NCBI GenBank assembly: GCA_029260575.1 | Contig: JAJDDB010000032.1 | Coordinates: 62,001 to 126,000 of the forward strand | Origin: Phycisphaerales bacterium | GTDB taxonomy: Bacteria > Planctomycetota > Phycisphaerae > Phycisphaerales > SM1A02 | Length of the DNA: 64,000 nucleotides | Reading direction: 5' to 3' | Part shown: piece after piece, positions 3,093 to 42,399 of the stretch | Layout of the letters: each line of letters begins with the position of its first letter | Numbering within the stretch: position 1 is the first letter of the stretch | The notes under the pieces: model-generated | What the model saw: only the letters and a program-made list of their open reading frames with translations | The model's database searches: none | What the model was told of the DNA's origin: nothing | Made by a program: the position numbers and the translations under genes

Positions 3093-3419
3093 ATGAGAAA
3101 AGTCACAATCGCTATTGTTGCGATGCTCTTTCTGATCGCGTGTACTTCAACGCAAACAAATGACACAATGATCAGAAACCAGATCGTCGATGCATCCTGC
3201 GGGCAATGTCAATTTGGTATGAAGCCGCCCGGCAGTTGCGATCTGGCGGTGCGTATTGATGGCAAATCATATTTCGTCGATGGAGCTTCCATCGACGACT
3301 TCGGCGATGCGCATGCACAAGACGGCTTCTGTCAGGCGGTGCGCAGCGCAGTCGTCACCGGCACGATCAAAGATGGAAGATTTCACGCAACCGAAATAAC
3401 GGTGCAGCCGTCTGAGTAA
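3093..3419 (+). CDS. DUF6370-like lipoprotein
   Basis: A 108-residue protein with a clear lipobox, LIAC with the modified Cys at residue 17, so it is expected to be anchored in a membrane facing outwards. The mature domain has four cysteines in the pattern DASCGQCQFGM...SCDLAVRIDGKSYFVDG...FCQAVRSA, which I recognise as the small DUF6370-type family frequent in Planctomycetes and Bacteroidetes. A GAGGTGA ribosome site lies just upstream of the ATG. The molecular role is unknown; the CxxC pair and the metal-like cysteine spacing invite a redox or metal-binding guess only. Confidence 0.7.
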   Translation: MRKVTIAIVAMLFLIACTSTQTNDTMIRNQIVDASCGQCQFGMKPPGSCDLAVRIDGKSYFVDGASIDDFGDAHAQDGFCQAVRSAVVTGTIKDGRFHATEITVQPSE

Positions 3420-3711
3420 GCGCAGTCTGCCAAGCCGCAATAGCCAGCTCCATTCGTCAACGCTCCTGCAAACATATTACGAACGTGGCAGAGTCAAATT
3501 ACGACTTTCAGAATTTTTTGCGCGCAGGCAAAGTGCGTGTGCAACACTGGTTCCGCGCACCATTTGGTGTTCGTTCGTATATGGACAACTGCGCCATCAT
3601 GCATAGTTATGGCATAATGCCTCGTCGTGCGACTCTTGATTCGTTTGACGATGCCAACGTTTGGTGTCGGTAGTCCCCACCATGAACACGAGTATCACAG
3701 GAGAATTCACG

Positions 3712-4065
3712 ATGAGGAAAGTTAAACTGCTTGCGACATTGTTGTGCGCGGTTGTGCTGCTTTCAATTGCAGGTCCCGCGCCGAAGGCCGAGGCTGGGTT
3801 CACGAGCTTCCCGATCTTCCCGACGTTCTTTCCGCCATACGCCAACACGGGTACGGTCATCGAAGTCGAAGATCTTGATGGCGGCCCCAACTGCATCCTC
3901 TTTCTGGATGACGATGGCGGCCTGTTCTTCTTCAGCGGCGTGGATGCATTCGCACCAGGTACACGCCTGAGTGTCTCCGGCAATCTGTGTACGATCTGCC
4001 TGAGCACGTTGAGCTGCGGCCTGCCTGCATCGCCGATTCTCAACGCCGTTGCGATAGAGATTTGA
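3712..4065 (+). CDS. Small secreted protein of unknown function
   Basis: The ATG at 3712 follows an AGGAG at 3699-3703 with good spacing, which decides the start over the upstream ATG at 3682. The 117-residue product begins with a signal peptide (RKVKLLATLLCAVVLLSIAG) ending near PKAEA. The mature part is short, with VIEVEDLDGG, an acidic LDDDGGLFFFSG and four cysteines in the last third (NLCTICLSTLSCG), likely paired outside the cell. No family is recognised. It is followed by a strong intrinsic terminator, so it appears to be a single-gene transcript. Confidence 0.65.
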   Translation: MRKVKLLATLLCAVVLLSIAGPAPKAEAGFTSFPIFPTFFPPYANTGTVIEVEDLDGGPNCILFLDDDGGLFFFSGVDAFAPGTRLSVSGNLCTICLSTLSCGLPASPILNAVAIEI

Positions 4066-6591: not shown

Positions 6592-7452
6592 ATGGGTGTA
6601 TGTATAGCAACGCAAAAGGAAATGCTTGATCGTCGGCGATCAATAGCGAATTGCTACATTTGTGGAACACCCTTGCCTCCAAAGGGTCCCGGTTGGCGAA
6701 AGAAAGTTACCTTAGAGCATGTGATTCCGCGAGCTTTGCTACGCGCAGTTGAGGTACCGAATGGTGCTTGGCCGGTCGCGCTATATGTACATAGACAATG
6801 CGAGACTGAACACAAGCAGCACCGAGACCAACTTGTGAAGGTTATTCAACAGCTAGGTAGGAACATAGGCTCTTGGAGTCAAGAAGAAATTGGTCTGCTG
6901 CTCCGGGAGGTCAAGGTGTCTACTGACCTTGATAGAGAAGAAAAACGGATCCCTTACATAACCGGAGCTGATAGCGCTATGCAGGCACCAGTGTTATGGG
7001 CTAGAGGCATGCATGCGACTCTGTACGGGATGACGCTTCCATCTGACATGGGATACATAACGAACCCGCCTGTCCCCATATGGAGCGAGAAAGATGGTGA
7101 CGTATTGGCCGGTCTTGGGAATTACGAGGATCGCCGTCGAGTAATTCTAGGATTAATAAGAGTTGCGATACAATCGGACAAAGTGGATGAAGTTCAAGCA
7201 TGGAATGGCAATGTTCTGTATCAATGTGCCTGGCGCACAGCACTTCTACGGCATGACGGACACTGGGGTTGCATGTGGGCGCTCGAGGTTCCCGGGACCA
7301 ATGATTGGGCGATGAAGGCGACTGGAATAGATTCGCCTTGGCATGGTTACTACGAATCCAATCAGCTTCCGCCACAGGCTTCTACCGTCGGACAGGACGA
7401 CATCGATCGATTTAACCGGTTTGTCGAGGAATCTCGATCTGGCAAGTCTTAG
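6592..7452 (+). CDS. HNH-type zinc-finger protein, possible endonuclease
   Basis: A 286-residue protein with an HNH-like module near its N-terminus: C21-x2-C24 (CYICG), E42-H43 in LEHVIPRALL, then H67 and C70 in VHRQCETEHK. This is the layout of HNH endonucleases in which two CxxC-type pairs hold a zinc ion around the beta-beta-alpha metal fold, with H43 the expected general base. The remaining 200 residues are unrecognised. CCGGAG sits just upstream of the ATG. The gene is clearly AT-richer than its surroundings and is followed immediately by the tandem repeat array. Confidence 0.62.
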   Translation: MGVCIATQKEMLDRRRSIANCYICGTPLPPKGPGWRKKVTLEHVIPRALLRAVEVPNGAWPVALYVHRQCETEHKQHRDQLVKVIQQLGRNIGSWSQEEIGLLLREVKVSTDLDREEKRIPYITGADSAMQAPVLWARGMHATLYGMTLPSDMGYITNPPVPIWSEKDGDVLAGLGNYEDRRRVILGLIRVAIQSDKVDEVQAWNGNVLYQCAWRTALLRHDGHWGCMWALEVPGTNDWAMKATGIDSPWHGYYESNQLPPQASTVGQDDIDRFNRFVEESRSGKS

Positions 7453-7487: not shown

Positions 7488-7697
7488 CAGAACGTTCTAT
7501 GTCGCATTCGAAGTGTAGAACATCGCATATCCACCCGGAACCCGCGCAGTCCACGCGTTGAACAGCGCACACCCACCGCAACACTATGCAAGAGAAGCTT
7601 GCCATAGCGCTCTGTGAATAGCACATGTTGAATGGTGAACGATTCTCAGCGCTGTATGGACCGTTAGATTCGCTCATCAATGCGTTCGCAGAACGAC
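7488..7697. repeat. 21-bp-period array at gene A, first (most diverged) sub-family
   Basis: Cut in the same 21-base register as the clearer array that follows, the segment gives ten units. Positions 15-19 stay close to (T/G)CGCA or GCGCT, and GAAC often occurs at positions 4-12. Units at 7488, 7509, 7530, 7551, 7593 and 7635 show the pattern best. Conservation is weak, so this part is less certain than the two later sub-arrays. It starts 36 bases after the HNH gene ends. Confidence 0.5.
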
Positions 7698-7907
7698 CCG
7701 GAACGTTCATCGTGCTCTACGATAATTCCGGGCGACTCTACGAACGGTTCGTGTTGTTCTACGAACCGTTCGTCGTGTTCTACGACATTTCCGGGCTGCT
7801 CTACGAACGATTCGTGATGTTCTACGAACCATCCGTCGTGCTCTACGACATTTCCGGGCGACTCTACCAACGTTTCGTCTCGCTCTACGAACAACTACCA
7901 GCCTAGT
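7698..7907. repeat. 21-bp tandem repeat array at gene A, second sub-family
   Basis: Ten consecutive 21-base units with starts at 7698, 7719, 7740 and so on to 7887. Most units share the core ACGAAC..TTCGT..TGTTCT; every third unit replaces the middle with TTCCGGG, giving a 63-base super-period. Several units contain the dyad ACGAAC-N-GTTCGT. Because 21 is divisible by three, frames stay open on both strands (heptads with a fixed Tyr on one, a fixed Val-Glu on the other), so apparent ORFs here are by-products or a low-complexity peptide. Confidence 0.85.
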
Positions 7908-8099: not shown

Positions 8100-9038
8100 A
8101 TGTCCACCAAGCATCGTCGCAAGCCGTACATCCCCGATGACGACTACGGCAAGAAGGTCTGGATGGAGCGGTTCATCACAACCATCGAACGCGATCCGGA
8201 GCGCTACGGCTTCAGCGATGCGTACATGTTTGAATATTATCAGCGCACTATTCGCAACTTCATCAAGGCGTTTGATGCGGTGTCGAATCCTGCGACGCGT
8301 TCGCCGCATGCGACGCTGGTGAAGAACCAGGCCCGCCAGGAAGCGGTGGCTTTGTGCCGCAACTTTGCGATGCAGTTGAAGTGGGATTCATCGCTGACGG
8401 ATGAAGACAAGCGAGCGCTTGGGATTTATCCAGACGAAGCGACGCCGGAGCAGGCAAAGCTTCCCACGGGAGTGCTGGCGGGGACGCTTGGGTATCCTGA
8501 ACTGGCGGTGCAAAGCTCGCCGAACGGCGGGCATGTGATTCGGTACCGCGATCCTGTGACGCAATCGAAGGCCAAGCCGAAGGGTGTTTCGCATTTTCTT
8601 TTATATGGTGCGATCGGTGCGAAGCCGAGGATGCCGCGCACTCATGCGCGATTTATGTATCCGTACACAAAGCGGCCGTTTGAGGTCATGTATCCGATGG
8701 ACTGCGGCCTCGAGGGTTTGTATGTGACGTATTACGGCAGGTGGCTGACGACGCGCGGCGCAATGAGTCCGTGGTCGCCCGGCGTTTCGAAGATCATCGG
8801 CGCAGCGAACGTGCGTCTGCGCGAAAGCGAGTTCGCGCATCTGTTCGGAACGCAAGGATTTGTTGATGCACTGCCGGCCCTCCCACAGGATGAGGATCGC
8901 CGTTTGACGCAGGGAGTCACGCAGGTCATTGAAGACGATCCGCTGCTGCTGGAGCGCGGCATGAGCGAAGATTCAGCGGGCGATGGACTGTTCGCAGCGC
9001 TGGAAGCGGCAACGGTGCGGTTGCTCAATACAGCGTAA
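8100..9038 (+). CDS. Uncharacterised protein A, related to 41392-42399
   Basis: A 312-residue protein with no signal peptide or membrane segment. The N-terminal half is helical and matches protein B at 41392: IP..D, RYG(F/L), a row of Thr/Ser and Ala before KNQARQEA, then LCRNFAM, and a 'K..LGI' boundary near residue 107. The C-terminal half is beta-rich, with YTKRPFEVMYPMDCGLEG and LYVTYYGRWLTTRGAMSPWS. The sequence R-W-x-x-T-x-G near a final Ser-rich strand resembles an unnamed bacterial family with a fibronectin-III-like end. The 21-bp array abuts its start. Function unknown. Confidence 0.7.
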   Translation: MSTKHRRKPYIPDDDYGKKVWMERFITTIERDPERYGFSDAYMFEYYQRTIRNFIKAFDAVSNPATRSPHATLVKNQARQEAVALCRNFAMQLKWDSSLTDEDKRALGIYPDEATPEQAKLPTGVLAGTLGYPELAVQSSPNGGHVIRYRDPVTQSKAKPKGVSHFLLYGAIGAKPRMPRTHARFMYPYTKRPFEVMYPMDCGLEGLYVTYYGRWLTTRGAMSPWSPGVSKIIGAANVRLRESEFAHLFGTQGFVDALPALPQDEDRRLTQGVTQVIEDDPLLLERGMSEDSAGDGLFAALEAATVRLLNTA

Positions 9039-39487: not shown

Positions 39488-40612
39488 TTATGAGATCGAC
39501 GCCTTGTCAGCGAGCTGACGGAGCAGTTCTGTCACGAGATCAGGTTGTTTGATTTTGGATAGCGTGCTTCGACGAAAACGATCTTTGAGAACCGCCTGAT
39601 CTTTTTCCACGGCATGGATCCAGTTGACCCGAACGCACCAATCGCATCGATCTTCATCGTGAAGTCGTTGGTCGTCGTAAACCGCGCTCACTTCAAGATC
39701 GGGCAGTGGTTTCGTGAATCCAACTGGTACAAACTCTCTGAGCGGGCAGGCTTTCTCTGTCACTTCACCATACCCAACGTATCCTTTGCCGCTGAGATAC
39801 GCGAATACTTTGTCCCCTTTGCGTAGAGTCTGGGCGTGGCCAATGTACTTCTGTCCTCCACCAGCCTGCAGGAAACCGTAACGTTTGCAGTCTTCCCACG
39901 ATCGATTTTGGTCTTCCGGTTTATCACCGGTATTCATAAACCAGTACCCAGTGTCTTTACGGGCAGCCTCTCGTCGTTCGTGCTCTTTCTCACGCACACG
40001 GACTATGTAATCCTCCGCATCGGGAAAAGGAATGACTTGTTGCACATCGAGGATCGTGTCGTTGGCAATCTGATAAGGTTCAAGTCGAACACATCGGATA
40101 TCTAGACCTGTCTCATTGAGCCACAGCACCGACGTGGTCAACTCCTTCTGAAAACCAGCAGCGACGAGGATAATTCGCACAGAATTTCCAAATTCATCCT
40201 CGCGAGGTTCATCCCACTGCAAGAAATCCAACAGTTCCGTCTGGGCGTCTAACTCAGAGTCGGTCTTGTCCAAGTGGAGTTGAAACACATCAACGGCGCG
40301 GTCAAATCTCATCTTTGCGACCATCGAGGCGTACCTGATCGCTTGAAGTTCCATGTGTCCGCCACGCCGACCGCGCTTCAGTTCAATGACAACGATGTTT
40401 GCCTGCCTATCGATGCCGAGAAGATCGATACGCCGTCGTGATTCATCCCAATCACAGAATTCTTCGCTGATCACTAGAACATCGGGCGCAACGACTTTGA
40501 TGTTCGCCTGCAAGAGACGTTGGAGATCAGAGCGTTCATAGACGCCAATGTCTGGGAAGGTCGTGGGACGTATTGATGCGATTGACTCAGATGTAAGACG
40601 GTAAAGGGACAT
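39488..40612 (-). CDS. Nuclease (PD-(D/E)XK) fused to a PUA/EVE-like domain
   Basis: A 374-residue two-domain protein. The N-terminal domain has the restriction-like core RRIDLLGIDRQANIVVIELKRG (D63, E77-x-K79, earlier E50) and HMELQAIRYASMV, reminiscent of NucS/RecB-like nucleases. After a helical linker rich in Glu/Arg (residues about 205-220), the C-terminal domain begins YWFMNTGDKPEDQNRSWEDCK and continues KYIGHAQTLRKGDKVFAYLS, a PUA/EVE-type fold that in other proteins reads modified bases. The fusion suggests a modification-dependent restriction nuclease. No partner methylase or helicase is nearby. Confidence 0.65.
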   Translation of the reverse strand: MSLYRLTSESIASIRPTTFPDIGVYERSDLQRLLQANIKVVAPDVLVISEEFCDWDESRRRIDLLGIDRQANIVVIELKRGRRGGHMELQAIRYASMVAKMRFDRAVDVFQLHLDKTDSELDAQTELLDFLQWDEPREDEFGNSVRIILVAAGFQKELTTSVLWLNETGLDIRCVRLEPYQIANDTILDVQQVIPFPDAEDYIVRVREKEHERREAARKDTGYWFMNTGDKPEDQNRSWEDCKRYGFLQAGGGQKYIGHAQTLRKGDKVFAYLSGKGYVGYGEVTEKACPLREFVPVGFTKPLPDLEVSAVYDDQRLHDEDRCDWCVRVNWIHAVEKDQAVLKDRFRRSTLSKIKQPDLVTELLRQLADKASIS

Positions 40613-40847: not shown

Positions 40848-41204
40848 CTTCCTTTCGCTCCTTCGAGCGTTCCCTTCGCGTTCTCGAACAACGACAGCGC
40901 GACCGGAACTTCTCGCCGCGCGCGAGGGCGCAATCCGGACGCTCGTGCGGACATTGACGGTGAGCATGCGACCATTCGCGGCGGGCGTGGAACCAATCCG
41001 GGAGCGCATGCGGGAATTCCGGGAGCGCGTGCACCATTTCACGAAGCGCGTTGGCGCGGGTGACTGTGTTGTCAGTGTGACAGGTTGTATTACCAAAACC
41101 GGGGGTTGTGGTTTCTGCGATGCTGGGAGTGTTACCCGTTGTGGCGACTGTGTTGTCCGGGCGATGGGTCGTGTTGTCGGCGTGCATGACAACACTTCCG
41201 GGAG
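40848..41204. repeat. 21-bp tandem repeat array at gene B
   Basis: Seventeen consecutive 21-base units in one register. Three successive sub-families are visible: four T/C-rich units from 40848 (TTC..TTCGCG), six units from 40932 sharing ATTC/AATC..GGAGCGCGTGCGG, and seven from 41058 sharing GACTGTGTTGTC. Minus-strand frames give heptads with a fixed His then a fixed Asn-Thr. The units are unrelated in sequence to those at 7698-8086 but have the same period and the same place before a member of one gene family. Confidence 0.78.
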
Positions 41205-41391
41205 CGGCGGCTTTGAAGCCGGTTGGGTGGACCGTGATGCCGATTGTGTATTTGTACGAGTTTTCGGACTTTCGGTGAAGTGGTGCAGCGGCAAAGACGA
41301 TTCGAGACTGGATTCTCGTTCTCCTGAGGCGAATCTTCGACCTGCGCGGGAATGACGGAGTGGGGCGGGAAGGATGTGCAGGAGCATTGTC

Positions 41392-42399
41392 ATGCACAAG
41401 AAACGCCGACATCGAAGCAAACGCCGCGATCATCGTGCCCGAACGCCGAAGAAGCGCAGGCTGCGGAATCTGGACCGATTCATCCCACGAGCGGACAGTG
41501 ACTTTGCGTATACCGCAAAGAGCTTTGTTCATTATGTATCGAAGCAGCCGCAGCGCTATGGTCTGACGGCCGACGATGCGGCGACAATCGAGAAGGCGGT
41601 GGCTGCGTTCCGCGAGGCGCTGGCGGTGGCCCAGAAGCGGCGGACGAGTACGATGGAGTTGGTTCTGGCCAAGGACGCCGCCCGCCAACATGCTGAGTTG
41701 GTCGTGCGGCAGGCGGGGGACATCGTCCGCGCGAACCCGGACGTGTCGGCCGCATCCAAGCGCATGCTGCGCATCAAACAGCGGCCGACGAAGAACAAAC
41801 GCCGTGATTGTCCGAGCGATCCGCCGGTGCTGAAGTACGTGCAAACGAAGGAAGGTGTGGTCGTGATGCATGATGGCGGCCAGTCCGTCGCTCGTGGCGT
41901 GCATGTGATTTCGTATGAAATTTTCGAACAGAGGATTGCACAAGGCAGGATTCGCACGCGCGCCGGCACCGGCAAACCTGACGGGGCTGTGCGGGTGGAG
42001 GTGTTTTGCGATCTCGTGCCGCCGGAGATGCCGGTGCCGAAGCACCCCGGCGAATATGGGCGCTGGCCGCTGTATTTGCGGTCGTACACGCGCAGTCCGA
42101 TGGAGGTGGAGTTTCCGCTGCCATCGCAGCCGATGCGTGTGGTGTATTGGGCGCGGTGGGCGAATGCGACGGGGCAGGTGAGCAGGTGTTCGAAGACGTG
42201 TGTCGGGCCGATTGTGGGCGGGCCGCCACCGGTGAAGCGACTGGATGCGCAGGAACCGGATCGCCTGATGGAGCCGAAGTTCACTGTCGTGCAGATGCCG
42301 GAGTTCGCGCTGCCTGCGGCTGATGATGCAGCGGGGCGGGAAATGCAGATGTTGTTACCTGCGATGGTGGAAGAGAAGAGACTGCCTGCGCAGCAATGA
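41392..42399 (+). CDS. Uncharacterised protein B, related to 8100-9038
   Basis: About 335 residues from the ATG at 41392, chosen because AGGAG at 41380-41384 has ideal spacing; the upstream ATG at 41374 does not. A basic start (MHKKRRHRSKRRDH) leads into IPRADSDFAYTAKSFVHYV, QRYGLTADDA, KDAARQHAELVVRQAGDIVRA and a 'K.MLRI' boundary, which align with protein A. The second half is beta-rich with YTRSPMEVEFPLPSQPMRVV and YWARWANATGQVS, aligning with A's last third. No signal peptide is visible. It lies 188 bases after the array. Function unknown. Confidence 0.68.
   Translation: MHKKRRHRSKRRDHRARTPKKRRLRNLDRFIPRADSDFAYTAKSFVHYVSKQPQRYGLTADDAATIEKAVAAFREALAVAQKRRTSTMELVLAKDAARQHAELVVRQAGDIVRANPDVSAASKRMLRIKQRPTKNKRRDCPSDPPVLKYVQTKEGVVVMHDGGQSVARGVHVISYEIFEQRIAQGRIRTRAGTGKPDGAVRVEVFCDLVPPEMPVPKHPGEYGRWPLYLRSYTRSPMEVEFPLPSQPMRVVYWARWANATGQVSRCSKTCVGPIVGGPPPVKRLDAQEPDRLMEPKFTVVQMPEFALPAADDAAGREMQMLLPAMVEEKRLPAQQ

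Follow-up and report, generated by a model that had tools for sequence, protein, structure and literature searches.

Iterons are direct repeats, each about 21 bp or two helical turns long, that lie upstream of one gene, the repeat being specific to its module. The REP/RAYT systems and the heptamer STRR repeats of cyanobacteria are short, partly palindromic intergenic repeats found at many loci. Heptameric repeats are noted in PMC4692102, and two further papers concern defence-gene hotspots, namely genomic-island hotspots of Pseudomonas (PMC12629846) and the cargo of Tn7-like transposons (PMC8649781). Here we describe a 21-bp array in the window (the whole stretch of 64,000 nucleotides from a Phycisphaerales bacterium that was analysed), one of about 20 such arrays in its genome, each of which looks like part of a previously undescribed gene-exchange site. 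No description of this module was found in open-licence papers, which is weak evidence of absence.

The 21-bp array in the window

The tandem array consists of nine units that begin with TCTACG or TCTACC, occupies positions 7716-7904 and keeps a spacing of exactly 21 bp according to TRF, a listing of the units and a sequence model. It reaches further than originally described and opens with inverted units (7683-7708). The features of the array are as follows:

7683-7708, minus strand: units in inverted orientation at the cargo-side end of the array (match to model R1, E=0.0032)
7704-7892, plus strand: three 63-bp super-repeats composed of three unit types, with TTCCGGG in the third (TRF)
7716, 7737, 7758, 7779, 7800, 7821, 7842, 7863 and 7884 (starts), plus strand: the 21-bp units (TRF, unit listing, sequence model)
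7740-7752, strandless: perfect dyad ACGAAC-G-GTTCGT, ACGAACGGTTCGT (exact match)
7761-7773, strandless: perfect dyad ACGAAC-C-GTTCGT, ACGAACCGTTCGT (exact match)

The original prediction placed ACGAAC-N-GTTCGT dyads at 7740 and 7761, and both are exact; the dyad at 7803 carries one mismatch (ACGAACGATTCGT) and that at 7824 carries two (ACGAACCATCCGT). It also proposed that each third unit contains TTCCGGG and that this creates a 63-bp super-period, which agrees with the positions of the motif (units at 7716, 7779 and 7842) and with the TRF result for the window (63 bp x 3.0 copies, 7704-7892, score 273, 84% match). This 63-bp triplication looks recent. The further statement about near reverse complementarity between neighbouring units holds but is trivial, because an odd-centred palindrome is self-complementary except at its centre base. 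Against joint column shuffles of the unit, the dyad score of the array was higher than expected, with p=0.006 for a 1-base centre, p=0.013 for a centre of 0-1 and p=0.037 for any loop of 0-8, and the predicted symmetry thus exceeds that of shuffled units. Because the units share ancestry, the dyad evidence from this array on its own is modest.

Two further arrays with the TCTACGAAC core, L002 and L012, were found in the genome by BLAST and with a sequence model of the units. They are homologous to each other (257 bp, 75.9%, E=4e-47) and follow one plan, in which inverted units (matches at C3:20872 and C16:72740) are followed by a 33-base junction and then by eight direct units at exact 21-bp spacing; although the two arrays have diverged, their spacing contains no indels. 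Of the three arrays found first, only the homologous L002 and L012 share a count of exactly eight units, and the idea that all three do so was dropped. Neither L002 nor L012 retains the ACGAAC-N-GTTCGT dyad. Genome-wide, its exact form occurs at two places outside the window array, and with at most one mismatch it gave 36 matches, compared with 24 for a reversed-pattern control. Since these counts are near background, a regulon of scattered dyads was rejected.

A cross-phylum family of CTACGAAC arrays was also considered and dropped, as many of the matches were 7-bp arrays or coding repeats and the rest were sporadic; the core shared by these arrays is uninformative because the search pattern selected for it. 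Tandem 7-bp arrays of the ACTACGA type, which read NYELRTT, are spread over many phyla (stretches L054-L130), and some Bacteroidetes carry intergenic 21-bp arrays (L112, L077, L095, L130) with no family gene, as defined below, in the stretch examined. No viral, phage or plasmid relatives of the array or of the family protein were found.

Array-gene linkage and private units

A lag autocorrelation scan across the window gave 21 as the standout lag and revealed a second array. Each of the two arrays is followed by an open reading frame:

8100-9038, plus strand: family ORF, 312 aa (tblastn to the L012 protein, E=1e-23)
40862-41180, plus strand: second 21-bp array, sequence-unrelated, with two lobes of different units (lag autocorrelation scan)
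41374-42399, plus strand: second family ORF, 341 aa (tblastn, profile search)

These two ORFs and the ORF after the L012 array belong to one protein family (tblastn E=1e-23, 1e-6). A profile search returned 22 family matches in this genome and family copies in 10 of 60 related genomes; G059 is a genome without copies. The family is previously undescribed: no credible match to a Pfam or NCBIfam model was obtained, and no Pfam domain was detected in 32 members. In the predicted structure, a confident N-terminal helical bundle spans about residues 10-110, followed by a C-terminal beta domain of low confidence with weak matches to Ig-chain profiles, which is probably Ig/FN3-like. The predicted fold is mostly of low confidence, and a structure search gave no fold match. 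The original prediction had suggested looking for a DNA-binding protein encoded near homologous arrays; the gene of one family does adjoin almost every array, but no recognisable DNA-binding or catalytic domain was found in its product.

Linkage was evaluated for 39 family copies in ten genomes (19 in this genome and 20 in relatives). An array was called when, no more than 700 bp upstream of the matched gene region, the strongest tandem lag equalled 20 or 21, or twice either value, and scored at least 0.46. By this rule, a 20/21-bp array lies upstream of 33 of the 39 copies, compared with 3 of 151 control windows drawn from further upstream, the gene body and downstream (Fisher p=2e-27). Seventeen of the 19 copies in this genome have one, and no array was detectable at the family copies L224 and L226. 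With respect to the gene start, the array is always upstream (0/38 downstream). The module comprises about 8-12 phased 20/21-bp units and, after a variable gap, a gene start 150-700 bp later; periods of 20 and 41 bp occur at some other loci. At L260, a near-perfect 21-bp tandem repeat (lag-21 identity 0.95) is found over 1.2 kb upstream, farther from the family gene than the arrays usually are. The L002 array (L167 7930-8170) has an AbiJ-like gene on one side and an AddA/UvrD-like helicase-nuclease on the other; its 16 kb contain no family gene, and no remnant of one lies nearby.

Each locus has unit sequences of its own (TCGTACGAGGTGACGAGCCGT, GCTCTGAACGCGGCGTTCATA, GATTCTGGGAACTCCCTGCGC, etc.). 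Consensus units of different loci are alike at 7.6 of 21 positions, compared with 7.3 for shuffled units, and are no closer than chance, with the exception of a few locus pairs, two of them orthologous. Dyad symmetry was then compared with column shuffles over 29 arrays, giving a combined p=2.4e-6, which is somewhat optimistic as a few of the arrays are orthologous; 8 of the 29 fell below 0.05. The same statistic under mirror, transition and keto pairing was negative (0.91, 0.10 and 0.97). Palindromic, helically phased units are therefore common to arrays without shared sequence, and the original idea of phased palindromic sites extends to about 30 arrays that have a 20/21-bp period and a dyad excess in common. 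Judged from sequence, such arrays look as dimer-binding sites of different specificity would, and their units are probably sites of this kind; the cooperative dimer-binding array of the original prediction is supported in part.

Cargo at the edge of the modules

The side of the array away from the family gene, here called the cargo side, carries the following genes in the window and at other loci:

6592-7452, plus strand: HNH-like gene (CxxC...EHVIPR) on the cargo side of the window array (motif by eye, weak PHROG HNH match, E=0.045)
39488-40612, minus strand: PDC-S11 candidate defence protein, NucS-like, on the cargo side of the second module (PADLOC, E=1e-121)
L240, cargo side: C5-methylase (C5-MTase) with HNH and Vsr
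L227, cargo side: PDC-S28
L229, cargo side: pPIWI-associated nuclease
L231, cargo side: caspase PDC-S65
L234, cargo side: BglII with MT-A70 methylase
L235, cargo side: PDC-M11B
L002, cargo side: AbiJ beside the orphan array

Defence matches in Pfam or PADLOC, the latter run on cargo-side genes only, were obtained at at least 7 of 19 loci and at the orphan array. The cargo side is poor in G+C: in this genome it has 0.529, compared with 0.575 downstream (p=6e-6) and 0.597 in the family gene (p=2e-6), and in the relatives 0.571, compared with 0.645 downstream (p=8e-6) and 0.668 in the family gene. On the cargo side of L228, an ORF at 3148-3825 (minus-strand gene context) resembles REP-associated tyrosine transposases by eye (WYRDNQVYFITARCRDGYPAF) and has no Pfam match to them.

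Exchange of cargo was compared at two orthologous loci in one genus of the same order. At site 1, homology covers the family gene and the array, breaks, and returns 2.1-2.2 kb later before an SMC-type gene; one species has an Mrr-type PDC-S02 nuclease as cargo, and the cargo of the other is an unknown gene. Site 2 runs from the module to the stop codon of a VOC-like gene and is occupied in four species by four unrelated cargos, which encode AIPR/AbiU, an HNH-like protein (by eye), two Zn-ribbon or membrane-like proteins, and an 844-aa protein; neither blastn nor tblastx detected similarity among the four. The G+C of this cargo is 0.56-0.60, compared with 0.635 in the flanks. Cargo size is roughly 2-3 kb. 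Moreover, a 92.8-kb collinear block of one species pair contains 11 gaps of at least 300 bp, nine of which are one-sided indels, and its only two reciprocal replacements (at least 1 kb) are those at the two modules. At site 1, the local periodicity stops at the junction; at site 2 it stops within 100-200 bp of it, the junction there lying 100-200 bp past the clearest periodicity. The cargo junctions showed no direct repeats or target duplications, and the longest matches, 6-10 bp, were inconsistent between the sites. Unrelated cargo at the same locus between conserved flanks, a feature of defence hotspots, was thus observed at two loci (in four species and in two species). The original prediction did not foresee this position of the arrays at the edge of exchanged defence-type cargo.

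Two observations concern the surroundings of site 2. A serine-recombinase-like ORF (VWARVSSREQREGYSIDAQLRATREKAEREGW) lies just past its boundary gene (L263 10272-12041), and because the DNA around this ORF matches several places in related genomes, the region resembles a mobile element in its own right. One species has two copies of the 3' end of the VOC-like gene (L266 677-1070 and 1362-1470), separated by about 300 bp, as if the cargo had carried one in.

Proposed module, rival readings and known systems

The reading that we favour, and regard as moderately probable, is that the array and the family gene form a two-part module marking one edge of a site at which foreign, often antiviral, DNA is exchanged as cargo. 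The array would be the cargo-side half and the family gene the other half; the units are predicted sites for protein dimers, most simply of the adjacent family protein, and each family copy would recognise its own array. We infer that the resulting nucleoprotein array may turn the site into a landing or exchange point for cargo, with the module and the flanking core genes persisting as cargo is exchanged. Cargo could enter through a recombinase acting in trans or by homologous recombination between the flanks; no recombinase or transposase domain was found in the module, and no mobilisation step is visible. More tentatively, the whole could be a previously undescribed cargo-capture system, possible rather than probable, in which each chromosomal site has a private palindromic 21-bp array and, matched to it, a DNA-binding protein from a new family, the pair recruiting and exchanging antiviral cargo with no integrase resident at the site. 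If true, a 21-bp period together with one protein family would provide a sequence-independent handle for antiviral gene pockets in poorly studied bacteria. This raises the questions of how cargo can be exchanged where no integrase is visible and by what means each of dozens of paralogous proteins might fit a repeat private to its locus, and the array-protein pairs would be natural material for studies of DNA-recognition specificity.

The main rival is pure gene regulation, which as a complete explanation we consider rather unlikely. The array would then be an operator only, with multiple dimer sites for auto- or cross-regulation of the downstream family gene, and cargo would gather where insertions spare the gene and be swapped by ordinary homologous recombination between flanks. 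The constant position upstream of the gene start, the palindromic and phased sites and the lack of repeats at the cargo junctions all fit an operator, but an operator alone leaves unaccounted for the location of both replacements in 92.8 kb at modules, the G+C-poor cargo side across copies and the different unit sequence of each paralogue.

It is improbable that the array is a functionless repeat, whether selfish or built up in intergenic DNA by neutral slippage. Tandem arrays are prone to slip, 7-bp and 21-bp arrays of the CTACGAA type are present in many phyla and the triplication in the window array looks recent; however, the period is fixed at 20/21 bp though the units are unrelated, a dyad excess extends across arrays, the diverged L002 and L012 arrays differ by no spacing indel, and the linkage to genes of one family (p=2e-27) disfavours this reading. 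Still less credible is a structured RNA element or an array of RNA hairpins in the gene leader. Each of the three arrays examined folds better than its shuffled versions (z -2.5 to -3.8) and inverted units stand at the cargo end, but such z-scores arise by construction from inverted or palindromic repeats, the gap to the gene is variable and the array start can be as much as 700 bp away from it, and RNA families were rejected for want of an Rfam match. Finally, a heptad-repeat peptide encoded by the array (LYERFVL FYEPFVV ...; ORF 7625-7906) can practically be dismissed: its frame is open in the window and nearly open in the two homologous arrays, but differences between homologous arrays are even over codon positions 1/2/3 (13/14/16 for L002 and L012; 20/28/26 and 20/27/23 for the other comparisons), so that, given also an in-frame stop in L002, the open frame is not a protein under selection, and periods of 20 and 41 bp occur elsewhere and no Pfam or PHROG match was found.

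Considered as the edge of a cargo-exchange site, the module resembles a chromosomal integron (an intI-attI platform with gene cassettes) in having a conserved gene by a recombination-prone site where unrelated accessory or defence genes turn over. It differs in that no integrase or recombinase is seen in the module, in having about 22 single sites spread over a genome where an integron has one long cassette array, and in a site sequence that changes at each locus. With defence-gene hotspots (PMC12629846, PMC8649781) it shares variable antiviral cargo and conserved flanks, whereas its edge consists of an array and a single ORF, a combination that recurs at many loci, with no integrase or Tns proteins seen and no terminal repeats. 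The flanking genes scanned included no IntI tyrosine integrase, and the 32 members of the protein family lack a Pfam domain; attC-type common-core sites were not found either, with no direct repeat common to two cargo junctions and units unrelated between loci. Hallmarks of transposons or islands (terminal inverted repeats, target duplication, att repeats) were likewise absent from the junctions, where matches of 6-10 bp were inconsistent. The defining features of integrons and transposons that were tested were not found here.

Iteron-controlled plasmid rep modules are similar in their repeats of about 21 bp upstream of one gene and in their module-specific sequence; in contrast, the arrays described here are chromosomal and present in many copies per genome, and the protein is not Rep-like (no Pfam match) and has no plasmid or phage relative that we could find. 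The REP/RAYT and STRR repeats are similar as short, partly palindromic intergenic repeats at many loci, but whereas REP has one unit family per genome, the units here are private to each locus and it is the period and the gene partner that stay constant.
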